From a virus, in IMG/VR virus record IMGVR_UViG_3300025310_000019, positions 1 through 30,253 of that record: a DNA stretch of 30,253 nt, one strand, 5' to 3'. The notes beneath the pieces were generated by a model. The model saw nothing but the letters and a program-made list of their open reading frames with translations. It did no database searches and had not been told where the DNA came from. Shown piece after piece: positions 1,476 through 26,918 of this stretch. The translations under genes were made by a program, and so were the position numbers. Every line of letters starts with the position of its first letter. The first letter of the stretch is position 1.

Positions 1476-2144
1476 ATGCGAATGTTCCCGTGGATGAGCG
1501 GCCCGCTGCGCGATCCAGACCCGGCGCCCGCCGGCGGCGGCACACCCGCCTTCGATGCCGCCAAGTTCAAGGCTGAGCTGCTCGGCGAAGTGAAAGTGCT
1601 CTTCTCGGAGTTGGCCAAGTCGCTCAAGCCCGAGCCGAAACCGGAACCGAAGCCGGAGCCAAAACCGGAACCGAAACCGGAGCCGAAACCCGGCGATCAC
1701 GACCAGGCCGCGCTGCTGGCTCGCATCGCGGAACTCGAAAAGCAGCGCGAGAAGGATGCGGCCGACGCCAAGGCTGCCCGCGAGGCCGCGCGCGATCGCG
1801 ACCGGCTGGCGCAGATCCGCACCATCCTCAGCGCGCACCAGTTTGCGTCCGATGCGGCCGCGGAGGATGCGCTTGCTCACTTCAGCGGGAAGCTGAAGTT
1901 CAACGATCAGGATCAACTCGTGACGCCGGACGGAACCCCGGCCAAAGACTGGGTGGCCAAGACGCTCGCCAACGAGCGCGCCTACCTGCTCAAGCCGCGC
2001 GACGTCGGCGGCGCCGGCGCCGGCAATGGCGGGACGGCTGCGCGCACGTTCAATCTCGAAGACCTGAAGCCCGGCATGAAGCCGGAAGACCTCGCCGCCT
2101 ACGAGCAACACGTAATCGGCCTCGCCAAACAGGCGTTCAGCTAA
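1476..2144 (+). CDS. Capsid scaffolding protein with a Lys-Pro/Glu-Pro hinge
   Basis: The protein has 222 residues and sits between portal and coat, the usual place for a scaffold that guides procapsid assembly and is then lost. Residues 51-72 are five KPEP units plus KP, a stiff extended linker coded at 1626-1691. This is followed by a strongly charged coiled-coil-like helix (about residues 75-115, LLARIAELEKQREKDAADAKAAREAARDRD), typical of scaffolds. The C-terminus (about 190-222, DLKPGMKPEDLAAYEQHVIGLAKQAF) is amphipathic and could bind coat. No protease motif is visible. The function is inferred from position and composition. Confidence 0.75.
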   Translation: MRMFPWMSGPLRDPDPAPAGGGTPAFDAAKFKAELLGEVKVLFSELAKSLKPEPKPEPKPEPKPEPKPEPKPGDHDQAALLARIAELEKQREKDAADAKAAREAARDRDRLAQIRTILSAHQFASDAAAEDALAHFSGKLKFNDQDQLVTPDGTPAKDWVAKTLANERAYLLKPRDVGGAGAGNGGTAARTFNLEDLKPGMKPEDLAAYEQHVIGLAKQAFS

Positions 2145-8739: not shown

Positions 8740-9978
8740 ATGCCCAACTTCCGCGAAGGCCGGCTCGACCGTCTCTACCTCCAGGCCCAGACGTCGCTGC
8801 TGACCGTCCCCAACTCGGGCGGCGCGAGCACGCTGGCCGTGACCAACTATGCGCGCTACAAGTCGTTCTCGATGAGGTCTGTCGTGGACACACTCGTCCG
8901 CGAGGACCTTACTGGGTCGCGCACCGGGACGCCCGGCACGCGGTCCGTCGAAACCGCCGAGTGGTCGATTGACGCCTCGCTCGCCTGCGGCGCGACGGGC
9001 GGAGCCACGCCTCCGCACGATCCGATTCTGCGCTCCCTGTTCGGCCAGGCGCCGACGAGCGTAACCGGCACCGGCAGCGTGAGCGGGGCGACAAACGCTT
9101 CGCCGATCGTCATCACGCAGACGGCGCACGGCTACGCAAACGGTGACGCCGTGTTCATTTCCGGTGTGGGCGGCAACACGGCCGCCAACGGCGCGTGGGT
9201 CATCGCCAACACCACGACCAACACCTATGAGCTGATCGGGTCCACCGGGAACGGCTCTTATACGAGCGGTGGTTCTGTGACGAGGGTCGCGAAGAAGTTC
9301 ACCTTCGCGTCGACCTTCCTGCCCTTCGTCGCCGCCGTGTTCAATCCGGTCACGACCCTCAAGCAGTGGCTCGGCTACGGACTGTTCCCGCGACAGGCGA
9401 AGTTCGAGTTCGGCGGCATCCGCCATGCGCAGTTCAGCGCGTCCGGCCGGGGCATCCGCGTGCTGGACAATGACACCTTCTCGACGCTCACGCTCTCCGA
9501 AGCCGGCCAGCTCACCGCGTTCCCCAGCGAGCCGAGCGGCACGCTCCCCACGGACGGGGGCGCGATCACCGCCTTCTTCGGCGCGGCCATATTCGGCGGC
9601 AAGAGCGTACCGTGCATCGCGAGCGCAGCGCTGGACATCTCCACCGGGCTCGACCTCGGCGATCCACCCTGTCTCGACGAAACGGGATTCAACCGTACGA
9701 CCGGCGATGAGCGCACTGTTATTCTCGACGTGCAGCTGATCGACAACGACACCGACGGCGCCAAGGATCTATACTCGTACGCGAAGTCGAAGGCGCAGAT
9801 GGACGTCGTCCTCCGGATCGGCAACACCAATCCCGGTACCGTGCTGATCTACGCCCGCAACGTACAGTGGGAGCACGAGGGCTCGGACGGCGACAAGCGG
9901 GAGACGAAGCGCTCGTTCAAGGGCCGCGCCTACGGCCCGACCAACAACAACGACGAACTCACGATGTGGTTCTTCTGA
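8740..9978 (+). CDS. Major tail tube protein with inserted FCCH-like domain
   Basis: The product has 412 residues. The outer parts (NFREGRLDRLYLQAQTSL, SFSMRSVVDTLVREDLTGSRTGTPGTRSVETAEWSIDASL, and C-terminal VLIYARNVQWEHEGSDGDKRETKRSFKGRAYG) look like a siphophage tail tube. Residues about 116-183 are a separate module beginning GATNASPIVITQTAHGYANGD and ending GNGSYTSGG. This pattern is known as the E1 FCCH-like domain in phage proteins, and a second copy occurs in the tail-tip protein near 20.9 kb. It may project from the tail surface. A GGAG ribosome site precedes ATG 8740. Confidence 0.75.
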   Translation: MPNFREGRLDRLYLQAQTSLLTVPNSGGASTLAVTNYARYKSFSMRSVVDTLVREDLTGSRTGTPGTRSVETAEWSIDASLACGATGGATPPHDPILRSLFGQAPTSVTGTGSVSGATNASPIVITQTAHGYANGDAVFISGVGGNTAANGAWVIANTTTNTYELIGSTGNGSYTSGGSVTRVAKKFTFASTFLPFVAAVFNPVTTLKQWLGYGLFPRQAKFEFGGIRHAQFSASGRGIRVLDNDTFSTLTLSEAGQLTAFPSEPSGTLPTDGGAITAFFGAAIFGGKSVPCIASAALDISTGLDLGDPPCLDETGFNRTTGDERTVILDVQLIDNDTDGAKDLYSYAKSKAQMDVVLRIGNTNPGTVLIYARNVQWEHEGSDGDKRETKRSFKGRAYGPTNNNDELTMWFF

Positions 9979-10550
9979 TGAACTTCACCAGTCTGATCCG
10001 CCACGAATCCCGGCAGGTGCCCGGCGTCAGCTTCGGCGTGCGCCGCATGACCGAGGGCACCCGTCTCAAGCTCCGCCTTGACCTCGCCGCCGCTTTCGGC
10101 CGCCTGCGCGCGCTCGAATCCGAACGGGCGGACCTGCTCGACCGGGCGGCCGAGCGGCTCCGCAAGCCCGCGGATCAGGTGTTGGTCGGCGAGTTGCTCG
10201 CGTCGGAGCGCCGCGAGCTCGCCGAGCTGGTCGAGCGCGAAGCGCTCATCCAGCAGACGGAGATCAACCCCGCGTACCTCGCGGCCGGGATCGCCTGGAT
10301 CGAAGGCCTCACGCTCGACGGTGAAGCCATCACCGACGCCGCCGGCCTGGCGCGTGTCCCGTGCCCGCGCCTCTACCGCGAGATACTGGACGCCGTCCTG
10401 GCCGCCTCCGGACTGGCGGACGCCGACCGCCCAAACTCCGGGTCGCCTTCCACTTCTGGCGCAGTGGAGGGTGGGGAGACCGCCGTTACAACTGCGCCAG
10501 GTGCAAGCGCGTCGAGCAATACCGCCTCGATCACCGCGCCTGCCGCCTGA
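9978..10550 (+). CDS. Tail assembly chaperone, short form (gpG-like)
   Basis: ATG 9978 overlaps the tube stop (TGATG) and yields 190 residues. The protein is largely helical and charged (TRLKLRLDLAAAFGRLRALESERADLLDRAAERL) and ends in a low-complexity Ser/Thr/Ala tail. Its place between tail tube and tape measure is that of lambda G. A -1 frameshift site at 10430-10436 would divert some ribosomes into the next frame to make a 294-residue G-T fusion. The chaperone binds the tape measure and recruits tube subunits. Confidence 0.75.
   Translation: MNFTSLIRHESRQVPGVSFGVRRMTEGTRLKLRLDLAAAFGRLRALESERADLLDRAAERLRKPADQVLVGELLASERRELAELVEREALIQQTEINPAYLAAGIAWIEGLTLDGEAITDAAGLARVPCPRLYREILDAVLAASGLADADRPNSGSPSTSGAVEGGETAVTTAPGASASSNTASITAPAA
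10430..10473 (+). promoter_or_regulatory. Programmed -1 ribosomal frameshift signal (slippery site and hairpin)
   Basis: CCCAAAC at 10430-10436 is a perfect X-XXY-YYZ heptamer in the chaperone frame (C CCA AAC). Seven bases later, 10444-10454 can pair with 10463-10473: an 11-bp stem with two G-U pairs and an 8-base loop. Both spacing and direction fit a -1 shift into the open frame that ends at 10861. Confidence 0.8.
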
Positions 10551-10861
10551 TCGGCATCACGCCGGCGCGGCCGTCGCCCTGGCGGCCGGACTACCGGACG
10601 CCCGAGCCGGACGAGAAGTACTTCAGCGTCGAAGGCGTCGAGTCGCAGGAATGCCCGGTCTCGCTGCTCTCAGACAAGCCGCACCTCACCGCCTACGTCG
10701 AGGAGTTCTTTCGCGCCCGGCGGCTGCGGGAGGCGTCGGGCGCGGCGGCGATCGCAGCGGCGCTCAGCGACTGGCCGGCGGAGATGGCGGACGCCTGGGA
10801 AGTGATGGCCCAGGAAGACGTCAGGTACGAGAACGCCCTTCACCGGGCGATGCACTCGTAA
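10436..10861 (+). CDS. T-domain of the tail assembly chaperone, made by -1 frameshift
   Basis: This frame has no convincing start of its own; a GTG at 10361 exists but lies inside the G gene. It begins to look like protein exactly at the slippery site (KLRVAFHFWRSGGWGDRRYNCARCKRVEQYRLDHRACRLIG). Joined to G at the shift it adds 141 residues, giving a 294-residue fusion. The T part has a CxxC (YNCARC) and two more cysteines (HRAC, ECP), which could bind zinc, then a helical C-terminus (HLTAYVEEFFRARRLREASGAAAIAAAL). In lambda, the gpGT T-domain contacts tail tube protein. Independent translation from 10361 remains possible. Confidence 0.7.
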   Translation, partial: LRVAFHFWRSGGWGDRRYNCARCKRVEQYRLDHRACRLIGITPARPSPWRPDYRTPEPDEKYFSVEGVESQECPVSLLSDKPHLTAYVEEFFRARRLREASGAAAIAAALSDWPAEMADAWEVMAQEDVRYENALHRAMHS

Positions 10862-10926: not shown

Positions 10927-11118
10927 ATGCAACTGTCTCACGACCTGCCCGCCGGCGACGTGCTCACGTCCGACCCGGCACTGATTCGGGCGCTCATGGG
11001 CCTCGGCAATGAGGACTGGGCCACTCTGCTTGACGAAATGCCGGCGCCGGCGAAACGCGGCTTGCGCGAAACGCTGGCGAATCTGATCCGCGCCCGTGAT
11101 GAGGGAGTTGGCGCGTGA
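10927..11118 (+). CDS. Small helical protein of unknown function
   Basis: The product has 63 residues (MQLSHDLPAGDVLTSDPALIRALMGLGNEDWATLLDEMPAPAKRGLRETLANLIRARDE), preceded by a strong AGGAGGTGC site 6 bases upstream. The TGA stop overlaps the next ATG (TGATG). It is amphipathic and helical. No family was recognised. Confidence 0.65.
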   Translation: MQLSHDLPAGDVLTSDPALIRALMGLGNEDWATLLDEMPAPAKRGLRETLANLIRARDEGVGA

Positions 11119-11459
11119 TGCGTTGGCTGCTCGGTGGAGTCTGCCTGTTCATACTTGCGCCGCTATTGCTCATGATGGTGGTGGTTTCGGCGACTTCATC
11201 TTCGGAACTGCCTCAGCTTGAGGGCAAGACGTTGTCATTCGTTGGCCACGTAACCGAGTCCGGGCGGAGTACCTTCGCCGACGTTCCGTTCGTAGTGGTG
11301 TACGTCGATGAACTGAGGATCGAGGTAAAGTGCTACGGTTCGGGGCGCGTCCTGGGTCTCAGCGCCGGGCAGCAGGTCGCGATCAAGGGAGTGGCCACCG
11401 GGTTCTTCAAGGGGGTCGGCGGTTCGCTGCAACCCTGTGAGGTTCTCGCCGCCAGGTAA
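11118..11459 (+). CDS. Membrane-anchored OB-fold protein (tRNA_anti-like)
   Basis: I chose ATG 11118, coupled to the previous stop; GTG 11115 is one codon earlier. The 113-residue protein has one N-terminal membrane helix (WLLGGVCLFILAPLLLMMVVV). An about 85-residue beta domain follows: LEGKTLSFVGHVTESG, ELRIEVKCYGSG, LSAGQQVAIKGVATGF and GGSLQPCEVLA. This order fits the tRNA_anti-like OB-fold family. It would sit in the inner membrane with the OB domain outside or inside depending on topology. It has no obvious tail function and may be a cargo gene acting on the host envelope; this is inference. Confidence 0.65.
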   Translation: MRWLLGGVCLFILAPLLLMMVVVSATSSSELPQLEGKTLSFVGHVTESGRSTFADVPFVVVYVDELRIEVKCYGSGRVLGLSAGQQVAIKGVATGFFKGVGGSLQPCEVLAAR

Positions 11460-11464
11460 ACAAG

Positions 11465-14098
11465 ATGTCCGCGGAGCTTGTCTATCGCCTGCGGCCCGAA
11501 GGGGCCGAGCAGCTCCGGAAGATAGTGGAATCCGTCAAGGCGAGCGACGACGCGGTCCGCCGCGCCGCCGGTGGTCTCCGGGACTACGACTCCGCGGCCG
11601 GCAAGGCTGTCGCTTCAAGCGCGGCGATGTCGGCTTCGCTCGGCTTCAGCGTCGGTGTCTGGACCAAGGTCATCGACGTCACCTTGAGCGCCGCCGGCGC
11701 ATTGTTGCGCGCCGGGCCGGCGATGGCCAAACTGGCGGAGCAGCAGGCCCACACGGCGGCCCAAACGGGGTTGACCGTACGGGAGGTGGGACTGTTTGAG
11801 GCCGCCGCCGAGGATGCTGGACTTTCCGCCAACGCCTATACCTCTGCGATGCGTTCGCTCAGCCACACGCTGACCGAAGGCGGATCCGAAAGCAGCAAAG
11901 CGCGGCGAGCCCTGCGTGACCTCAACGTCGTGGTCGAGGATGGCTTCGGCGCGATCCGCCCGATGGGCCAGATCTGGCTGGACTTCACCAAAGCGATTGG
12001 CTCTGTCCAGGACCCGGCTCGGCGCGCGCAGCTCGCCGTCGACGTTCTCGGGCGGAGCGGACTCGATCTGCTCCCGCAGCTCAACTCCGAGTTCGGGCGT
12101 ACGCTCGAAGCCTACCGGGCGATGGGTGTAGGTTTTGACGACGTCGGTCTTAAGACGGCCCGCAACCTGGGCAACGCGGTGCACCGCATGCGCCGGTCGC
12201 TGCAAGCCCTCCGGCAGGAGACTGAGACCGCGATAGCAAACTTCCTCGGCTTTGGGGTCGATCCGAAAAACGTCAAGCCGTTGTCGCAGGCGATCGCCGA
12301 GGCCAACCGCGACCGGGATATTCTGCTGTCCGGCGGTATCCTGCCGCTGGATGCCCCCGCCCCGAAGGGGGCGAAACCCGCCACCCTAGAGCAGGTCCTG
12401 GCAAGCCGGCGGACCAGCGACCTCCAGAAGATCAACGCCGAGCTACAGCGCACCCTCGGTCTGGAAGACCGTCTCCGCGACGCCCACCGCGAGCGCGACG
12501 AAGCCCAGCGGGTTGTCGACGTAGACCGGTTCCGCCGCGCCCAGGCGGAAATCGCCTACCTCGAGCGTGCCGTCGAGGCGGAACGAAAGCGCAAACAGGA
12601 AACCGCCGAGCACGCCCGCCTGGTCGAGCGGCTCGGCAAGTTCGAGCACCGCGAGTCGGACAATCCGCTTCCGCCCCGGCGAGTCGCGGCGGACGGCCGC
12701 AGGCTCGCGCCGTCGTTGTTCCGCCCCGGCGAGTCGCGGCGCACAGTCGTCCAGCTGGGCGACGGCTCGTTTGTGGATGTGGGCTCGGTGTTCCGCGCCG
12801 GCGATCTCGGTGCGGCGCCTGGCGCCGAGCAGGACAAGGCCTATGCTGCCGGACTCGCGGCGAGGCTGAAGGCCGAGGGCGACCAGCGCGAGCAGATGCG
12901 GACGCGGGAGCGCGACCACCGCCTCCGCATGATCGAGCTGACCGCCGGTCCCGGCGGCGAGCTGGCGGCCGCCCGGGCCGTCTACGAACTGCGCCTGCGC
13001 TCCGCGGCCACCGAACTCGAGCGCCAGGATGCCCGCATCGCGCTTGAGGAACGGCTCGCCCAGCTCCAGCAAGACAACATCCGTCGCTACGAGGAGACCG
13101 CTGGCCGCGTCTACGACGCCATCCGCCAGCGCGGCGGCGGGGGCCTCCGCGACTTAGTGCGCGGCCAGGTGGACATCCTCGGGCGCCAACTCTTCGTGAA
13201 CGCTTCTTCGGAGTTCTTTCAAGCCGCCGGCGGCACGCTCGGCCGGATCGGCGAGGCCTCCGGACTCGGACGCCTTCTGCGCGGCACGATCTTCGACCCC
13301 GCAAACGCCCAGAAGCCGCTCGATCGCAACTCGGCCGCCCTCGGGCGGCTGACCAGGAGCGTGGACCGCCTGACCGGCCAGCTCGCCGGCGGGCCTATCG
13401 CGATCGGCTCCGATGGCGCGATCAGTGTCCCCGGCGGAGTACTCCAGGGCGCGCCCGGCGGCCTGGGTGTCATCTTCTCGCTGTTGGGCCGGGGCGGATC
13501 GGGCGATCTGCCTCTCTCGGCTGGGCTGGCCGGTCGGAACGCGAACTTGGCGCTCAACCTGCTCGGCGTCCCCTCGACGCCGGCGGCCGGCAAAGGCATC
13601 GGCGCCCTCCAGAGAGGCCTGGGCTACGGCGCCGCCGCGGCCGCGGGCGCCTTTGGCGTCTACAGCGGCATCCGCGAGGGTGGGCTCGGCGGAGGGCTCA
13701 CTGCGGCCAGTTCGGCGCTGGGCGCGGCGTCCCTGATCCCGGGCCCGCAGCAGCCGTTCCTCCAGGCCGCTGCGTTGCTCACCGGGCTGGTCCGCTCATT
13801 CCTGCCCGACCGCAAGGCGCAGGCCGAGCGGGAACAGATCGAGCGGCTGAACGCCGCGCGCTACACGGCGCCCGCTGGCGTCGATGTCGTCAGCGACCGC
13901 TACGGCAATGCGGTCGACTACGACTTTCGCGGCAATGTCCGTGTGATTGAGAGGCCGGTGTACGTGCGGATCGACGCCCTCGACGCCCGCTCAATCGCGG
14001 ATCGCCGGCAGGACATCGCCACCGCGGTCCGCGACGCCATCCTCGAGGGCACGGACCTCCGCGACACGGTCCGCGGCCTGTCCATACTCCCGAACTAG
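11465..14098 (+). CDS. Tail tape measure protein
   Basis: This 877-residue protein sets tail length and is ejected ahead of DNA. Residues 1-270 match the TP901-type tape measure region (AKLAEQQAHTAAQTGLTVREVGLFEAAAEDAG, AMRSLSHTLTEGG, ARRAQLAVDVLGRSGLDLLPQLN). Residues about 300-550 are charged coiled coil. Residues about 690-780 contain small hydrophobic and Gly/Ala-rich segments (GYGAAAAAGAFGVYSGIREGGLGGG, FLQAAALLTGLVRSFLPD) suited to membrane insertion. An odd 23-bp direct repeat at 12669-12691 and 12719-12741 is read in two frames. The gene follows the chaperones, as expected. Confidence 0.88.
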   Translation: MSAELVYRLRPEGAEQLRKIVESVKASDDAVRRAAGGLRDYDSAAGKAVASSAAMSASLGFSVGVWTKVIDVTLSAAGALLRAGPAMAKLAEQQAHTAAQTGLTVREVGLFEAAAEDAGLSANAYTSAMRSLSHTLTEGGSESSKARRALRDLNVVVEDGFGAIRPMGQIWLDFTKAIGSVQDPARRAQLAVDVLGRSGLDLLPQLNSEFGRTLEAYRAMGVGFDDVGLKTARNLGNAVHRMRRSLQALRQETETAIANFLGFGVDPKNVKPLSQAIAEANRDRDILLSGGILPLDAPAPKGAKPATLEQVLASRRTSDLQKINAELQRTLGLEDRLRDAHRERDEAQRVVDVDRFRRAQAEIAYLERAVEAERKRKQETAEHARLVERLGKFEHRESDNPLPPRRVAADGRRLAPSLFRPGESRRTVVQLGDGSFVDVGSVFRAGDLGAAPGAEQDKAYAAGLAARLKAEGDQREQMRTRERDHRLRMIELTAGPGGELAAARAVYELRLRSAATELERQDARIALEERLAQLQQDNIRRYEETAGRVYDAIRQRGGGGLRDLVRGQVDILGRQLFVNASSEFFQAAGGTLGRIGEASGLGRLLRGTIFDPANAQKPLDRNSAALGRLTRSVDRLTGQLAGGPIAIGSDGAISVPGGVLQGAPGGLGVIFSLLGRGGSGDLPLSAGLAGRNANLALNLLGVPSTPAAGKGIGALQRGLGYGAAAAAGAFGVYSGIREGGLGGGLTAASSALGAASLIPGPQQPFLQAAALLTGLVRSFLPDRKAQAEREQIERLNAARYTAPAGVDVVSDRYGNAVDYDFRGNVRVIERPVYVRIDALDARSIADRRQDIATAVRDAILEGTDLRDTVRGLSILPN
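12669..12741 (+). repeat. 23-bp direct repeat in the tape measure gene
   Basis: The same 23 bases, starting TTCCGCCCCGGCGAG, occur at 12669-12691 and 12719-12741. The copies are 50 bases apart, which is not a multiple of three, so they are translated in different frames (LPPRRVAADG and LFRPGESRRT). Confidence 0.85.
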
Positions 14099-15265: not shown

Positions 15266-16060
15266 GTGGCACTCTTTCCACAACTCAACGCGCGCGGTCT
15301 CATCGTCCAGCGTCGGTACACCCGCGCCTTCGCGGCGCGCACGACGAGTGAGGAACAGCCAAGCGGGCGGCGCTACGCGCGCTATTGGCGCGCGAACGCG
15401 CTCGCGACGTATACGCTCACGTATCAGTCACTCACCGACGACGAGCTCAACTCAATCCGCGCCTTCTTCGATGCCCGCAAAGGTCGATACGAGTCGTTCG
15501 AGTGGCTTGACCCCGCCGGCAACCTGGTCGAGTACAGCGAGGACTTCTCGCAGGCGGCCTGGACGAAGTCGAGCGTGACCGTGGGCTCGAGCGTGACCGA
15601 CCCATGGGGCGGCTCGCGCGCGACGAGCGTGACCGGCTCGACCGGCGCGGCGTACATGCAGATCGACCTCGAGCCCACCGGCCTCAACGGTCGTGTGCTG
15701 TGCGCCTCGGCATGGCTACGCCACGCGACGGGCGGCGTCACGTGCTCCGTCGGGTTCCTCGACGGCAGCAACGTCTACACGGAACGCGTGCTGCCGGCGG
15801 GCGAGTGGGTGCGGGTCGAATATACGCGCACGATCGTGGACACCGGAACGATCTCGATGCTCATTGGCATCGGGAGCGCCACGGTGCAAGTGTTCGGCGC
15901 CCAGGTTGCGGCCACGCCTGGCGCCGGCGCGTATGCCCGCTCGCCGATGCTCTACGGCTACCGGCCCAACTGCCGCTTCGGCAGTGACGAACTGAGCGCT
16001 GTCCACAATGGCCCGGATAACTGGGCCGTCAACTTCACGATTGAGGAGTTCCACGCTTGA
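15266..16060 (+). CDS. Distal tail protein, DUF2460-like, with inserted carbohydrate-binding-like module
   Basis: The GTG start at 15266 gives 264 residues. Residues 1-85 (TYTLTYQSLTDDELNSIRAFFDARKGRYESFEWLDP) and the last 40 (PNCRFGSDELSAVHNGPDNWAVNFTIEEF) match the compact paralogue upstream. Between them, residues about 86-215 form a module starting NLVEYSEDFSQAAWTKSSVTV and containing CASAWLRHATGGVTCSVGFLDGSN. This 'YSEDFSxAAWTK' module is common in phage tail proteins and looks like a CBM_4_9/LamG-type beta sandwich. It may bind host surface sugars; that is inferred. Confidence 0.7.
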   Translation: MALFPQLNARGLIVQRRYTRAFAARTTSEEQPSGRRYARYWRANALATYTLTYQSLTDDELNSIRAFFDARKGRYESFEWLDPAGNLVEYSEDFSQAAWTKSSVTVGSSVTDPWGGSRATSVTGSTGAAYMQIDLEPTGLNGRVLCASAWLRHATGGVTCSVGFLDGSNVYTERVLPAGEWVRVEYTRTIVDTGTISMLIGIGSATVQVFGAQVAATPGAGAYARSPMLYGYRPNCRFGSDELSAVHNGPDNWAVNFTIEEFHA

Positions 16061-16820
16061 GACCCTACTACCGGCGCGGCGGCATCGCTTCGCGATCTAT
16101 CACGCCGATTCGCGCGACGTGCTGCCATCGCTTCGCGCAGGCAGCGTGGGGATGATCTTCACGGATCCGCCGTATGGGCACAACAACAACAACGGGGATC
16201 TGATCCACCGGCGGGAGGCTGCTCTCGGCCGTCCCGCGAAAGTACAGGCGATTGCGCGACCCATCGCCAACGACGGTCCAGAAGCGAACGACATCTTCCG
16301 CGGCTCGCTGCCGCTGTGGGCGCGAGTGCTTACGCGCGGCTGCTGCTGCTGCTGCTGCGGCGGCGGCGGCGGCCCCGATCCGCAGTTTGCCCGCTGGTCG
16401 TTGTGGCTCGACGAGGTGTTCGACTTCAAGCAGCAGGTGATCTGGGACAAGGGACCCATGGGAATGGGTTGGCACTACCGGCGCAGCTACGAGACGGTGC
16501 TCGTCGCACAGCAACCCGGCGCCGCGTGCCGATGGTACGACACCAGCCATAAGGTCGAGAACGTGATCCGCCACATTCGCAAGATCATCCCCAAAGCGAC
16601 CGACCATCCGACGCCGAAGCCCGTCGCACTCTCCGCGCACTTCATCGCGCTGCACTCGCAGCCCGGCGACCTCGTCCTCGATCCGTTCCTCGGTGGGGGA
16701 TCGACGCTCGTCGCCGCGACATGGGACGCCGCGCCATCGGCATCGACGTTGACGAGCGCTGGTGCGAGATGGCGGCGCGACGCCTGGACGGCGAAGTTCA
16801 AAGGAGCAATGGCAGCATGA
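16008..16820 (+). CDS. Beta-class DNA methyltransferase (N4/N6 type), frame probably disrupted
   Basis: The frame holds the catalytic motif TDPPYG, then WDKGPMGMGWHYRRSYETVLVAQ, HPTPKPVAL and the SAM-site motif DPFLGGGSTLVAA. This order marks the beta class that methylates cytosine-N4 or adenine-N6. A Cys6-Gly5 run is coded at 16341-16373. After LVAA the usual next part (GRRAIGIDVDERWCEMAARRL) is found in the -1 frame from about 16717, so this ORF ends in unrelated residues. At the other end, TTG 16057 overlaps the previous stop and reads RPYYRRGGI, a typical N-terminus for this family, also in a different frame. The gene may be decaying, phase-shifted or mis-sequenced. ATG 16008 is only the first available start. 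Confidence 0.65.
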   Translation: MARITGPSTSRLRSSTLETLLPARRHRFAIYHADSRDVLPSLRAGSVGMIFTDPPYGHNNNNGDLIHRREAALGRPAKVQAIARPIANDGPEANDIFRGSLPLWARVLTRGCCCCCCGGGGGPDPQFARWSLWLDEVFDFKQQVIWDKGPMGMGWHYRRSYETVLVAQQPGAACRWYDTSHKVENVIRHIRKIIPKATDHPTPKPVALSAHFIALHSQPGDLVLDPFLGGGSTLVAATWDAAPSASTLTSAGARWRRDAWTAKFKGAMAA

Positions 16821-17011: not shown

Positions 17012-17772
17012 CGCGATGGTTCTGCCTCCTGCTTGCCGTCCCGTGCGCCGCCCAGACGCTCATCAATGGCGCCAGGGACTTCGCCGAGCTGCCCAGTCCG
17101 CCCTCATCGCCTCCGGCCGGGTCCATTCGGATCGCCAACGTCGGCAACAAACTTCACTGCCGGGACTCCGCCGGCGGCAACTGTCTGCCCACATCGTCCG
17201 GCCTCACGAGTAATCCGGGAGACGCCTGGTTTGTGCCACATGGCATCCCGTACTATGCCGGCACCCTCACTGCCACAGCTGGAACGCTCTATCTTCAGGC
17301 CTTCCAGACTCAGGCGTCGATGGAGTTCCGCGCCATGGCCGTGCAGATCACCTCCGGCGCCGCGCCGGGGACCGGGGCATGCGGCTGCATCTACACCCGG
17401 GCCGCCAATGGCGAGCTGACGCGCATTGCACAAACCAGCGGAGTCGTGGTCTCGACCGCGAGGGTCACCAGGTTCCCGTGGGCCTCCGGGTCCGCCGTGG
17501 CATCCGGGAAGCTCACATTGCCAGCCGGCCAGAACTACTTTCTCGGGTGGGGCGCGGAGGCCACCCCCGGGATCCGCAGTTCGGCCGAGTCCATCGGCGC
17601 CATCGTTCTGAACGAATTCGATGGCGGATCCACGTTCCTGACCAAACAGATCGCGAACGTGACCGGCGCCATCACCGGCACTGGAACCGGCGTCACCTGC
17701 CCGGCCACGATCGCCGACGCCTCAGTCACGCCCGTGAACCGCGTTATCGCGATGCTCTCTCTCGCCCCGTAA
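17008..17772 (+). CDS. Exported tail-associated protein with Sec signal peptide
   Basis: ATG 17008 overlaps the previous stop (ATGA) and gives 254 residues; the open frame extends upstream but overlaps that gene. The N-terminus MTRWFCLLLAVPCAAQ is a short Sec signal with cleavage expected after CAA or AxA. A short Cys-containing domain (GSIRIANVGNKLHCRDSAGGNCLP) resembles the early part of the 3770 gene product. A beta-rich body follows (YYAGTLTATAGTLYLQAF, KLTLPAGQNYFLGWGAEA). It sits between tail genes, so it is probably virion-associated or secreted. No family was recognised. Confidence 0.65.
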   Translation: MTRWFCLLLAVPCAAQTLINGARDFAELPSPPSSPPAGSIRIANVGNKLHCRDSAGGNCLPTSSGLTSNPGDAWFVPHGIPYYAGTLTATAGTLYLQAFQTQASMEFRAMAVQITSGAAPGTGACGCIYTRAANGELTRIAQTSGVVVSTARVTRFPWASGSAVASGKLTLPAGQNYFLGWGAEATPGIRSSAESIGAIVLNEFDGGSTFLTKQIANVTGAITGTGTGVTCPATIADASVTPVNRVIAMLSLAP

Positions 17773-20700
17773 TGCCCATCGGAACGATCAACACCGCCAA
17801 GGAGCAGGCGCAAGCGCCGCGCCCGCTGCTCCTGGCGACGGTGACGTTCCTCGACGGCACGATCCTGCGCCTCTCCACCGACGGCCTGCGCACCGCCGAC
17901 GCGGGCTTCAGCTATGCCGGCAACGACTACCTGCCGCGCATCCTCAACCAGGACATCGCCGCGATTCAGGCGCTCTCGGACGGCGGGATCGACATCGCGC
18001 CGAGCGTGACGCTCGAACTAAACAACGCCGACGGCGCGATGTGGCAACACGAGATCGACCGCGGATGGCGCGGCGCACGGCTCGTGCTCACGTTCATTTT
18101 CTGGACGCCGGGCCAGAACGATTTCAGTAGCGACTCGATCACCAAGTTCCGCGGCATCTGCGGAGCGCCGGAGGTCGATGAGACGCGCCTCCGCGTCACC
18201 GCGACCTCGCTCCTCGCCCTCGCCAACGCGCAGCTGCCCACCGCGCGCATCCAGCCGCGCTGCCTGCACCACTTCCCCCGCACGGCGGCCGAGCGGCAGC
18301 ACGGCGCGGACAACGAGGACTCACTCTTCTACGGTTGCGGTTACTCGCCGGATGCGACCGGGGCGAACGCGCGCGGCAACTATTCGTCGGGCACGACCGC
18401 GTTCACCTCGTGCAACCGGACCAAGGAGCACTGCGTCGCGCGGGGCATGTACACGCAGGACTCCTCCTCCCGAACCACCGGGCGCTTCAGCGGCGTGCAA
18501 TGGGACCCGCCGAAGTCCTGGCGCTCGCGTGCATATAAGCCCCAGGCAACGTGGGAGGAGGGTTCCAACACGTCGAACGAGGCCAAGTACGGCGACGTGA
18601 TCCCCCTCGTATGGGGCACAGCCTGGGTAGAGCCCAAGATCGCCAATGTGATTGGCGACGCCAACTCGACACGTTTCGAGTGCCTGGTCTGCTGGGGCGA
18701 AGTCGACCAGATCCTCCGCGTCGTGGTCAACGACGTCGAACTGCCCGCCGCGACGGACATGTCCCACGGCGCGCTGCCCGTCGCAGACGCGTTGTTCCGT
18801 TGGAACCTCGTCAACCGCGGCGACCGCGACGGCGCCCCCAATGCCGACGCAGGCTATGACTCGGCCGGCGATCCCTACGGCAGCATCTGCGTCCTCGAGT
18901 GCGTCGTACCTCGGCGGCTCGCCGAATCGTCAGCCGTCCCGCGCGTCCGAGTCCTCCTGCGCGGACCAAAACTGCGAAAGTACACCGACGTCTCGACGTA
19001 CACGAAGGCGGGCTATCCCGACAACGAGAACCTCGCCTGGATCATCATGGACCAGCTGATCTGGTCCGGGCTGTCTTATTCGGACCTCGACATCCAGAGC
19101 TTCATCGATGCCGCGGCCATCTGCGCGGCGTCGGTCACCTTCAAGGACCACGACGGACTCAACAACACGCACGGCCGATTCACCGGCTCCGTCGTGTTGG
19201 ACCAACGCCAACCCGCCTCCGAGATCCTGCGGGGCGCCCGCAACGCCTGCCGCGCGTTGCTGGTCGCCAACTCAGACGCCGACGCGAAGCTCAAGCTCGT
19301 CATCGAGCAGACGCTCGCCGCGCAGCAGGCCGCTCCCGTTGCCGGGAGCAACTACAGCACGGCGATCGCCTCCAAACTCGCCGACGGCACGGCCGCGAAC
19401 GGGTACGTAGCGTATGACTTCTCGGAATCGAACATCCTGCGCCGCGGCGGCCAGAGCACGTTCCGCCTTTTCGCGCCCTCCGCTCTCCCGAACCGCGTCG
19501 GCCACCAGTTCCAGGACCGGCACAACAACTATTCGCTCGACAGCGAGACAATCATCGATGTCGACGGCCTGATCCGCGATGGCGGTGTCGAAAAGCCCGG
19601 CTCGTTTCCGCTCGTCGGCGTGGCCTCGCACGACCACGCACGACGCGTGATCTCGACATGGATGGCCCGGCAGCTGCTAGGCAACCCCCGCAACGCGGGT
19701 TTCGGCGACGCCGGCGGCACTTGGATGTGCGAATTCGAGACCACGTTCCGCGCCGTCCGCCTCCAGATCGGCCAGATCGTACGGCTCAGCTACGCGCAGC
19801 ACGGCATCTCGAACCAGCTGATGCGCATTGAGCGCGTGCAACCCACCACGAACTACGAGTACTGTAAGCTGACGCTCCGCTGGCACTCCGACGAGTGGTA
19901 TCTCGACACGTTTGGCCAGGAGGACTCGCCGCGCTTCAGCGGCTCGCGGCGGAACCGCTTGGCGAGGCCGCCATACCCCATCTTCGGCAACACCGCCACT
20001 GGCGGGCTGACCAATCCGGATCCGATGTATGGTCGCGAGCGTTTCTTCGGGCTGACCGCAACCCGAGACGACGCTGATCTCTACCAGCTGCGCGCCTCGA
20101 GCAAGCTCCCCGTGAACACCTTTCCGGCGGGCTTCCGCGCCCCGTGGATTCCCCACCAAGGGAACACTGCCTCCACTGGCGGTGCGCTGCCCGGCAACAC
20201 TCGCTATTACGTCGAGCTCGTCGCGATCGGCCCGGGCGGCCTCTCGGCCCCATCGATCCAGTGCCAGATCGATGTGCCGGCCGGTACGTCGACGAACACG
20301 ATCACCGTCCCGGATGTCGACTGGGATGCGTCGGCCACCGGCTACGGCCTGTTTGTCGGCACCGATCCGCAGCGGACTATCTACCAGGGCGCCTACGTCG
20401 GAACTCCGGCCAGCGTCACGTTCACCGGCCCGATCGACTGGAGCGCCGCTTCCCGCGTCAAACCAGACCCCGAGTTCGACTTCGCGCGATGGCGGATCAA
20501 GCGCGTGCGGAACGCCGGCGTCGCCGCATTCGAGCCGACGGGGGCGACGTCCTCCACGATCACCCTCGCCAACGCCTACTGGACCACCAATCAATGGGCC
20601 GGCTACGACGTCTCCGCGATCGGCGCGGATCTGGGCTACGACGCCGGTCCGCTGTGGAACTGGCGAATCGTCAGTAACACGAGCGATACCCTCACGGTCG

Positions 20701-21794
20701 ACACGAGCTACGGCCCGGCGCCCAATGCCGTGCTGGACTGGACCGAGGGCACCGAGCGATACCTCCTCGTCATCCGCACGAAGCCCACGACGATCACAGC
20801 GGACACCATCACCGAACCGAACTGGGATAATTCCCTCGCCCTCGATCCGGGGGCCCAACCCATCACCGCCGCCACCAACGCCAGCCCCATAGTCTGCACG
20901 GTCGCCGGGCACGGTTTCGTCAATGGCGACAAGATCCGGGTTGACTTCGCCGAGGGCAACACCGCGGCCAACGGCCTATGGACCGTCGCCGGCGCGACGA
21001 CCGATACGTTCGAGCTCTCCGGATCGGTGGGCAACGGCGCCTACACCGGCGGCGGCATCGTGCGCCGCCGCACCGGCGGGCTCGGAGCCGACGAAGCGAA
21101 GGGCAAGCTGCTGCGCATCCTCGCCGGCAAGGGGCGCGGCCACGTGTATAAGATCGCCTCGAACACTGCCACGGCGATAACGATCGAAGGACAGTGGATC
21201 GAAACCCCAGACTCGAGCACACGGTTCATCACTGAAGAGCCGGATTGGCTTCGCATCGTCGACACGAGCCCGGCCAATATTGACAGCTGGGACCCGCCCC
21301 AGATCCCGGAGTTCGTCCTCGACCTCGCGGGGCACGGCCAACGCACGCTCCTGGTCCAGCTGGTCCCCGTGGACGGCGGCGGTAACGAGGCGATGGAGTC
21401 GGCATGCCAGCTCCGCGACACGTACTGTTTCCACGACCTAGGCCAAGCCCTCGAGCAGTACCAGTCCGCGGTCAACCTCACCGTCGACGGCACGCTCTCA
21501 ATCGGATCCGATCAGGCCTCGCGTATCTCGCTGCGCCGCGCGGCGTCGGCCGTCGCCGTCAAGGCGGTCGTGAAGACCGCGCCGTCCGGGGCGGACCTGA
21601 CGGTGCAGTTGCTCGTCGGCACCACGGAGTGGATGGCCCTCACGATCCCCTCTGGCTCCACCGCCATCGAGGCGACAGCCTCGCAGCTCGCCTCCGCTTC
21701 TCAGATCCCCGCAGACACCAACATCCGGCTGGACCTGGTCACTGTCGGCACCACCTTCCCCGGCGCCGACCTCTCCGTCGCCATCTACCTATGA
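17772..21794 (+). CDS. Large tail-tip (tail hub/host specificity) protein
   Basis: ATG 17772 overlaps the previous stop (TAATG) and yields 1340 residues. The N-terminal 150 residues (LLLATVTFLDGTILRLSTDGL, GIDIAPSVTLELNN) resemble hub proteins of GTA/siphophage tails. Residues about 180-260 hold several cysteines (CLHHFPR, FYGCGYSPDA, TSCNRTKEHC). This is the tip-protein pattern in which a Cys-rich loop (CNRT, HC) is conserved. Residues about 280-720 form the J-like body. Later come an Fn3-like domain (ALPGNTRYYVELVAIGPGGLSAPS, about 805) and an FCCH-like domain (residues 1033-1100). It probably forms the tail tip that contacts the receptor. Confidence 0.8.
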   Translation: MPIGTINTAKEQAQAPRPLLLATVTFLDGTILRLSTDGLRTADAGFSYAGNDYLPRILNQDIAAIQALSDGGIDIAPSVTLELNNADGAMWQHEIDRGWRGARLVLTFIFWTPGQNDFSSDSITKFRGICGAPEVDETRLRVTATSLLALANAQLPTARIQPRCLHHFPRTAAERQHGADNEDSLFYGCGYSPDATGANARGNYSSGTTAFTSCNRTKEHCVARGMYTQDSSSRTTGRFSGVQWDPPKSWRSRAYKPQATWEEGSNTSNEAKYGDVIPLVWGTAWVEPKIANVIGDANSTRFECLVCWGEVDQILRVVVNDVELPAATDMSHGALPVADALFRWNLVNRGDRDGAPNADAGYDSAGDPYGSICVLECVVPRRLAESSAVPRVRVLLRGPKLRKYTDVSTYTKAGYPDNENLAWIIMDQLIWSGLSYSDLDIQSFIDAAAICAASVTFKDHDGLNNTHGRFTGSVVLDQRQPASEILRGARNACRALLVANSDADAKLKLVIEQTLAAQQAAPVAGSNYSTAIASKLADGTAANGYVAYDFSESNILRRGGQSTFRLFAPSALPNRVGHQFQDRHNNYSLDSETIIDVDGLIRDGGVEKPGSFPLVGVASHDHARRVISTWMARQLLGNPRNAGFGDAGGTWMCEFETTFRAVRLQIGQIVRLSYAQHGISNQLMRIERVQPTTNYEYCKLTLRWHSDEWYLDTFGQEDSPRFSGSRRNRLARPPYPIFGNTATGGLTNPDPMYGRERFFGLTATRDDADLYQLRASSKLPVNTFPAGFRAPWIPHQGNTASTGGALPGNTRYYVELVAIGPGGLSAPSIQCQIDVPAGTSTNTITVPDVDWDASATGYGLFVGTDPQRTIYQGAYVGTPASVTFTGPIDWSAASRVKPDPEFDFARWRIKRVRNAGVAAFEPTGATSSTITLANAYWTTNQWAGYDVSAIGADLGYDAGPLWNWRIVSNTSDTLTVDTSYGPAPNAVLDWTEGTERYLLVIRTKPTTITADTITEPNWDNSLALDPGAQPITAATNASPIVCTVAGHGFVNGDKIRVDFAEGNTAANGLWTVAGATTDTFELSGSVGNGAYTGGGIVRRRTGGLGADEAKGKLLRILAGKGRGHVYKIASNTATAITIEGQWIETPDSSTRFITEEPDWLRIVDTSPANIDSWDPPQIPEFVLDLAGHGQRTLLVQLVPVDGGGNEAMESACQLRDTYCFHDLGQALEQYQSAVNLTVDGTLSIGSDQASRISLRRAASAVAVKAVVKTAPSGADLTVQLLVGTTEWMALTIPSGSTAIEATASQLASASQIPADTNIRLDLVTVGTTFPGADLSVAIYL

Positions 21795-21841: not shown

Positions 21842-22552
21842 ATGACGTACCCCCTGCATCTGGCGCCGGCACACCCGGACAACTGGCGCCCAGGGCGCGG
21901 CGGACTGCATCCCTGCGCGATCGTGATCCACCGGATGGATGCAACAATTAGCAGCGCCAAGGCGTGGTTCGCCGCGGGCCAAGCTGCGCGCCAGGGCCGC
22001 GGGCCGAGTGCCGCCCACTACGGCATCGGCCTCGACGGCCGGCGCGAGCGCTATGTTGAGGAGGCCGACACGGCCTTCCATTGCGGCGCCACCGGATCCG
22101 CCATCCTCGGCGCACATTATCCGTGGGCTTGGCCTGGCCTGAACCTGAACACGGTGACCATCGGCATCGAGCACGAGGGCTCGGGACGCCAACCGTGGAC
22201 CGATGAGATGATCCACTCGAGCGCAGAGCTGATCGCCGACATCGCGCGCCGGTACGCCTTCGAGATCTCCCGAACGACCGTGGTTCCGCACAATGCGCTG
22301 AAGCCGACAGCCTGTCCGGGGCCGGTGTGTCCGCTCGATCAGATCATCGGCTTGGCCCGCGCGGCCCGCGAGCGGCTTGACCAGCCCCCCGAGTCCACCG
22401 CACGAGCGACCACGGCGCCGGTCGACACCGTGGCCGTCGCGGCGCTCCGGACGGCCGTGGACGCCTACGCGGCCGCGCTCCTGGAGGGACGAGCCGACCC
22501 TGCGCGCTGGCGCAGCGTCGAGACCGCCTGGGAGGCTCTCCGTGGCGGCTGA
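21842..22552 (+). CDS. N-acetylmuramoyl-L-alanine amidase endolysin (Amidase_2)
   Basis: The 236-residue protein cleaves the amide bond between N-acetylmuramic acid and L-alanine in peptidoglycan. Zinc ligands are visible as His30 (AIVIHRMD), His150 (VVPHNAL) and Cys158 (TACPGP), the exact Amidase_2/T7-lysozyme-type set, with GIEHEG in between. No signal peptide is present, so export needs a holin, and no holin gene is obvious in the window. Residues about 185-236 are a helical tail. A GAGGAT-type site precedes ATG 21842. Confidence 0.9.
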   Translation: MTYPLHLAPAHPDNWRPGRGGLHPCAIVIHRMDATISSAKAWFAAGQAARQGRGPSAAHYGIGLDGRRERYVEEADTAFHCGATGSAILGAHYPWAWPGLNLNTVTIGIEHEGSGRQPWTDEMIHSSAELIADIARRYAFEISRTTVVPHNALKPTACPGPVCPLDQIIGLARAARERLDQPPESTARATTAPVDTVAVAALRTAVDAYAAALLEGRADPARWRSVETAWEALRGG

Positions 22553-26032: not shown

Positions 26033-26662
26033 ATGCGACACCGTCTTGTTTTCCTCGCGACCGCGGCCACGGTCGCGGTCGCGGTCGCCTCGCCCACGCG
26101 CGTTGTCGACACGATGAGGGCCGCAAACAACCAGCCCGCAAATGGGACGTGCGTGCTGACCTGGCCCAGTTTTCGCACAGCTGACGGAGTCAGCGTCAGC
26201 TCCGGCACCCGCCGCTATCTGGTCCGCGGGGGCGTGGTCGACATCGCGCTCCAGCCCACCGTCGGGGGGATCCCCACGAGCTCGCCCTGGCTCGCCCCTG
26301 CGTACGTCGTCACCTGCTACTTAGGGGCGGCGGCACCCGTCACCGAGTACTGGCAGGTGCCCACGACCTCGCCGGCCACGCTCGCGCAAGTGCGCCAAGG
26401 GCCGCCGGGCGTCGCAGGCGGGGGTGGATCTGGCATGGTGCGCTTCTCGGATCACGAGCTGCCGGTCGGCGTCATCGACGGACTCAACCACATCTTCACG
26501 ACGGCGCTCACCCCGAATCCGCCGGTCTCTCTGCATGTCTGGCGCAACGGGATCCTGTTGCGCAGCTCGGTGGATTATACGGCATCGGGAAACGTGATCA
26601 CGTTCCTCTCTTGCTGTGTCCCTCAGGCAGGCGATCTGCTCGAGGTCAGCTACCGCTACTGA
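26033..26662 (+). CDS. Exported fibre-tip-like protein
   Basis: The 209-residue product starts MRHRLVFLATAATVAVAVAS, a Sec signal coded by a GGTCGC-type repeat. The body has a short GPPGVAGGGG linker at about residues 123-132. The C-terminal domain reads FTTALTPNPPVSLHVWRNGILLRSSVDYTASGNVITFL and ends LLEVSYRY. This 'N-G ... L ... DYT-x-G-N-x-I-x-F ... L-x-V-x-Y' pattern is common at the ends of phage fibres and receptor-binding proteins. An AGAGAAAG site precedes the ATG. It overlaps the convergent minus-strand gene by 17 bases. Confidence 0.7.
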   Translation: MRHRLVFLATAATVAVAVASPTRVVDTMRAANNQPANGTCVLTWPSFRTADGVSVSSGTRRYLVRGGVVDIALQPTVGGIPTSSPWLAPAYVVTCYLGAAAPVTEYWQVPTTSPATLAQVRQGPPGVAGGGGSGMVRFSDHELPVGVIDGLNHIFTTALTPNPPVSLHVWRNGILLRSSVDYTASGNVITFLSCCVPQAGDLLEVSYRY

Positions 26663-26918
26663 TCCGCCGCCACAACGCCAGCAGCCGCCGCCACCAGCCC
26701 GCCGGCCCTTTGTCCGGCCCCTCCAACATCACAGCCCGCAGCGCGCGGACAAAGTCGTCTGCGTCCCGGAGTGCCTCGGCGCACTCCGGGCAGAGGGCGA
26801 CGTGCGCCTCGATCGTCATCGCCGTGGCCGTGTCGGCGCGGCCAAGCGCGTAGATCTCCAGCGTTTCCCAGTCGATGTGCTCATCGGGATCGGGCATCTG
26901 ACGTCTCCGGCCGGCCAC
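26646..26918 (-). CDS. ZAS-type zinc-finger protein, anti-sigma-like
   Basis: The product has 90 residues (or 83 from the second ATG at 26897). IEAHVALCPECAEAL has His39, Cys43 and Cys46, the H-x3-C-x2-C zinc motif of the ZAS/zf-HC2 anti-sigma family, after DWETLEIYALGRAD as usual. Unlike most such proteins it has no transmembrane segment; the C-terminus is basic and Trp-rich (GWWRRLLALWRRI). It overlaps the end of the upstream minus-strand gene, so the two are co-translated. It could bind a host sigma factor, but that is inference. Confidence 0.7.
   Translation of the reverse strand: MAGRRRQMPDPDEHIDWETLEIYALGRADTATAMTIEAHVALCPECAEALRDADDFVRALRAVMLEGPDKGPAGWWRRLLALWRRISSGS

Follow-up and report, generated by a model that had tools for sequence, protein, structure and literature searches.

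Does the overlapping pair of reading frames ahead of a tail tape measure gene in this viral DNA encode a tail assembly chaperone that is extended by a programmed -1 frameshift, and what kind of domain would such a shift add? The frameshifted chaperone is among the most conserved recoding events of tailed phages, and its T domain is poorly understood. The analysed stretch, referred to as the window, is an IMG/VR record of 30,253 bases. The coordinates are those of its plus strand unless stated otherwise.

Probable chaperone locus and its relatives

The G gene, coding for the zero-frame product, extends from the ATG at 9978 to 10550 (190 aa). Directly upstream lies a major-tail-protein-like gene (8740-9978), which matched the major tail protein family phrog_584 (5.2e-07) via a short module, and a tail tape measure protein gene is situated downstream (11465-14098; PF10145, 4.3e-08; several PHROG tape measure families, to 2e-10). 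Corresponding matches were detected in the relatives, with the tape measure downstream in L002, L007, L026, L027 and L043 and the major tail protein upstream in L007, L009 and L043. The position between the major tail and tape measure genes is a criterion for the lambda-type G/GT pair and was found here. The AlphaFold2 model of G was helical (pLDDT 83). Its best match in BFVD was an unnamed protein (4.9e-08), and the named matches were weak: a putative tail assembly protein (0.011) and, weaker still, several tail assembly chaperones.

In the majority of relatives, T runs up to or into the next large ORF, and most have nothing interposed before the tape measure gene. The window has two small ORFs there, at 10927-11118 (63 aa, strong Shine-Dalgarno) and at 11115-11459 (114 aa, hydrophobic N-terminus), neither of which had a Pfam match. 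In HK97, a moron (gp15) occupies the same place. Elsewhere in the window, the large tail protein gene at 17745-21794 also matched phrog_584 via an approximately 60-residue module similar to the E1_FCCH-like one of 8740-9978, i.e. a domain repeated in two tail genes. Within the tail module lies an N6_N4 DNA methylase gene (16008-16820; PF01555), and the module is followed by an Amidase_2 endolysin gene (21842-22552; PF01510). A small ORF on the minus strand (26649-26918) gave a weak match to the anti-sigma-like zinc finger zf-HC2 (PF13490, 5.7e-04, under the curated cut-off).

The protein-based automatic search for relatives alone resulted in 9 loci. The family was extended by using degenerate DNA patterns for the HFW(R/K)xGGW block and a looser form of it in scans of 84,980 species genomes of GTDB and of IMG/VR. 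In total, 20 distinct members were obtained: 19 viral contigs, the window included, and one bacterial contig (L079). The 19 relatives share 30-50% protein identity with the window, and G was homologous across the 19 aligned members. L079 belongs to an Acidobacteriia metagenome-assembled genome. Due to the prephenate dehydratase and OPT transporter genes upstream on the same contig, this copy is most likely an integrated prophage, and it was the only occurrence of the family in 396 genomes of the same phylum. The tblastn searches of 50,697 records of isolated phages, with the queries tried, resulted in no convincing relative with either half. In the viral contig L023, the T region (1895-2131, minus strand) ends early, about 35 conserved residues in, near CGAAAAAAGG, which looks like an indel, due to either an assembly error or a broken gene.

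Probable slip site and the two reading frames

The heptamer CCCAAAC at 10430-10436 is placed near the end of the G ORF and in frame with the ATG at 9978 (offset 452, mod 3 = 2), which bears out the reading C CCA AAC given in the initial annotation. A -1 slip at this site would lead into the T extension (10436-10861; LRVAFHFWRSGGW... to the stop) and produce a 294-residue fusion from the ATG at 9978 to 10861.

T was in the -1 frame of G in 20/20 members. A junction heptamer was likewise detected in all of them, the 19 relatives carrying equivalents of the one in the window, as expected if the signal is conserved in homologues. Seven types were determined: CCCAAAC (2 members), AAAAAAC (7), GGGAAAC (2), AAATTTA (3), AAATTTC (4), AAAAAAA (1) and GGGGGAA (1). 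An in-frame X XXY YYZ was located no more than 3 codon positions from the junction in 19 members, and GGGGGAA was found in the twentieth, L079. Further upstream in the G genes, in-frame XXXYYYZ occurred at only 4 of 2755 codon positions (0.15%), and the junction heptamers therefore exceed chance. The distance from the start of the heptamer to the HFW codon was 21 nt in 12 members, 18 nt in seven and 24 nt in one. On a tree built from G and T without the junction, the type of the heptamer changed at least 9 times and its offset, by one-codon moves, at least 4 times. Since the site was retained through these changes, it has been kept repeatedly, which is more than simple inheritance. The heptamers ended in AAC, TTA, TTC, AAA or GAA, mostly in the first three; AAG, though the most efficient ending in E. 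coli, was found in 0/20.

Averaged over pairs of members, identity in the T frame rose from 0.21 before the junction to 0.66 after it. Several members had stop codons in the T frame ahead of the junction, and zero were found within the aligned codons after it. In nearly all members, the G frame continues 58-118 nt beyond the start of the HFW codon. The tail of G within the overlap (10443-10550 and its equivalents) is conserved with the consensus NSxSPTTSGAxxDGxxxxTTAP, indicating that the overlap is dual-coding and has little synonymous freedom.

A single gene split into two frames by a sequencing or assembly error has a negligible probability: metagenome contigs do carry indel errors and T of L023 looks broken, but the same -1 relation in 20 distinct members of the above divergence and the conservation of both frames through the overlap contradict it. 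Transcriptional slippage on homopolymer runs, instead of ribosomal slippage, could be considered for the members having runs of 6-8 A (eight in L025). However, the longest run does not exceed 4 in the CCCAAAC, GGGAAAC and AAATTTC members and the conserved feature is the in-frame X XXY YYZ pattern, which makes this explanation very unlikely. A T gene standing alone, with its own initiation codon and no frameshift, is similarly improbable. A GTG at 10361 would be available in the window, where it is the sole start-like codon upstream in the T frame and the first ATG does not appear before T residue 118, and some start-like codon is present upstream in 6/20 members. In contrast, the other 14 have no ATG, GTG or TTG in the T frame ahead of the conserved block, the T frame of L009 opens only 3 codons ahead of the heptamer, and the T-frame sequence before the junction is not conserved.

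The G-T fusion by -1 frameshifting, proposed in the initial annotation, was thus supported by a heptamer and a -1 relation which every relative keeps, mostly with no start in the second frame. The locus is very likely a lambda-type G/GT tail assembly chaperone made by -1 programmed frameshifting at CCCAAAC, judging from the frames, heptamers, cysteines, gene order and absence of alternative starts, each of which was observed directly in the compared sequences. Most ribosomes would finish at the stop codon of G (9978-10550). A presumed minority would move back by one base on C CCA AAC, with tRNA-Pro and tRNA-Asn presumably re-pairing on CCC and AAA, and would read on in the -1 frame to complete the 294-aa GT. 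The lambda system (PMC5009743) suggests by analogy that G would coat the tape measure protein, and recruitment of the major tail protein would fall to the T extension of GT. T itself probably forms a separate domain with the invariant HFW-x2-GGW block just past the junction and four cysteines as a possible zinc site.

RNA structure downstream of the heptamer

Sharma et al. 2014 (PMC4066793) give rules for E. coli under which slippage is reduced by an A-site AAC and also by X and Z bases that differ. The AAC of the window and its CCC beside AAA are both unfavourable, and C_CCA_AAC would by the published rules be a weak site of the low-efficiency class in E. coli. The description of the signal as near-ideal was therefore not sustained.

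The hairpin reported 7 bases past the heptamer is present in the window: the 5' arm (10444-10454) and 3' arm (10463-10473) form 11 bp, including two G.U pairs, with an 8-nt loop and -16.6 kcal/mol, and the spacer between the heptamer and the stem is 7 nt. The conservation of the stem in homologues failed, as both arms are window-specific and 4 of the 11 pairs (columns 23-48, 26-45, 29-42 and 30-41) were each broken in 11-15 of 20 members. The loop sequence CUGGCGC (10456-10462) is complementary to GCGCCAG at 10494-10500, which was not mentioned in the initial annotation. By base complementarity, this pairing makes possible either an H-type pseudoknot, with the loop in its putative stem 2, or a competing long stem (10455-10465/10491-10501), of which the loop would be a part; the minimum-energy fold of the window chose the long stem.

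Across the 20 members, the reported stem together with the loop pairing had 71% of cells paired, which was no better than column shuffles, and RNAalifold predicted zero covarying pairs for the family. The competing long stem was also tested across the family and rejected, with no conserved structure. Upstream of the heptamer, no Shine-Dalgarno-like stimulator was detected in the family (mean z -0.10). A conserved stimulatory element, downstream or upstream, was not proven. Some phage chaperone frameshifts have been reported without stimulators (PMC5009743), and the missing element is therefore not evidence against slippage.

The 75-nt downstream fold of the window had an energy of -38.7 kcal/mol, and 0.25% of synonymous recodings were as low. 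Along the gene, the 45-nt segment at heptamer+9 was the most over-stable of 54 compared to synonymous recoding, with a mean z of -1.09 that was negative in 18/19. The frameshift may be real while the hairpin or pseudoknot has no role, the stability of the fold being a by-product of dual coding. This explanation is a serious one, somewhat short of probable. The relatives do not share the helix, and the excess at heptamer+9 decreased to -0.47 +/- 0.22 when the residues of both frames were constrained, so dual coding can explain most of that stability. In contrast, the 75-nt fold of the window stayed among the lowest 0.9% of recodings (z -2.6) with both frames constrained. Local downstream stability placed the CCCAAAC and GGGAAAC members, four in all, at ranks 2, 3, 4 and 6 of 19 (post hoc rank-sum P 0.005). 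Compared to their nearest relatives, they had the stronger downstream fold in 4/4 independent contrasts, a sample (n = 4) that cannot reach significance. These values are suggestive of a trade-off between a weak heptamer and a stronger downstream fold, which is offered as a hypothesis only. Under the preferred frameshift reading, the strong stem or pseudoknot of the window probably stimulates slippage at its weak heptamer; the exact structure is absent in the other members.

T domain and known systems

The residues of T were numbered from the AAA codon at 10433. The CxxC and further cysteines of the initial annotation were recovered, the CxxC codons (Cys21 and Cys24) lying at 10493-10504 and two more cysteine codons at 10541-10543 (Cys37) and 10652-10654 (Cys74, in the ECPV motif). 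All four cysteines and His7 were invariant in the 19/19 complete T domains, as the proposed comparison with homologues would require. The complete set of invariant residues was A5, H7, F8, W9, G12, G13, W14, C21, C24, R35, C37, W50, E73, C74, P75, V76, G103 and P115.

From this pattern, zinc binding by the four invariant cysteines is plausible. The comparison of T with zinc families and folds gave no known match, and the literature on T domains, searched for zinc or cysteine, yielded nothing of relevance at the level of titles, abstracts and counts. The AlphaFold model of T had pLDDT 85 and pTM 0.79, with its lowest confidence, 60-69, at residues 21-50, around the first three cysteines. Searches of Pfam, PHROGs and the PDB sequences gave T no significant match, and its model had none in BFVD or PDB folds. 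A PDB profile match to the eL24 family (E 0.028) was too weak and was rejected. By these comparisons, T is a new domain relative to Pfam, PHROGs, PDB, BFVD and the 50,697 phage records. T domains are very diverse among phages, and the missing homology therefore marks a new type of T and does not exclude the mechanism. T of lambda, HK97 and N15 has 0 cysteines and the TP901-1 counterpart has 1, compared to the four invariant ones here; calling a cysteine-rich T unusual rests on these four phages, which is a small sample.

What is new is the cysteine-rich T domain and its lineage, whereas the mechanism is already known. A broader proposal, tentative and on balance doubtful, is that the family represents a chaperone lineage of uncultivated phages, one of them the Acidobacteriia prophage, in which T is a zinc-stabilised new fold and the heptamers repeatedly change in type and position, the weak ones (CCCAAAC and GGGAAAC) being balanced by stronger stems downstream to hold the G:GT ratio constant. 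The sharply conserved T, with its four cysteines and the junction motif, makes the function testable residue by residue. With seven heptamers among its 20 natural variants, the recoding site allows the trade-off between the strength of the heptamer and RNA structure to be compared, and the family motif enables annotators to recognise genes of this kind in uncultivated phages.

The order of major tail, G/T and tape measure genes is the same as in lambda (gpG/gpGT), HK97 (gp13/gp14) and N15 (gp14/15), where a -1 frameshift late in G likewise results in G alone and a G-T fusion (PMC5009743). In contrast to those lambda-type phages, T here had no detectable sequence or fold similarity to known families. 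The actinobacteriophage chaperones of the PRFect / SEA-PHAGES set also use -1 slippage in an overlapping pair, and GGGGGAA, the heptamer of L079, is reported to be common in actinophages (PMC10885494); however, no convincing protein match was found among the 50,697 phage records. The heptamers G_GGA_AAC and A_AAA_AAC are used in the g-t genes of the haloarchaeal siphoviruses HCTV-1, HCTV-2 and HCTV-5 as well (PMC5009743), which infect different hosts and resemble the present family in their heptamers.
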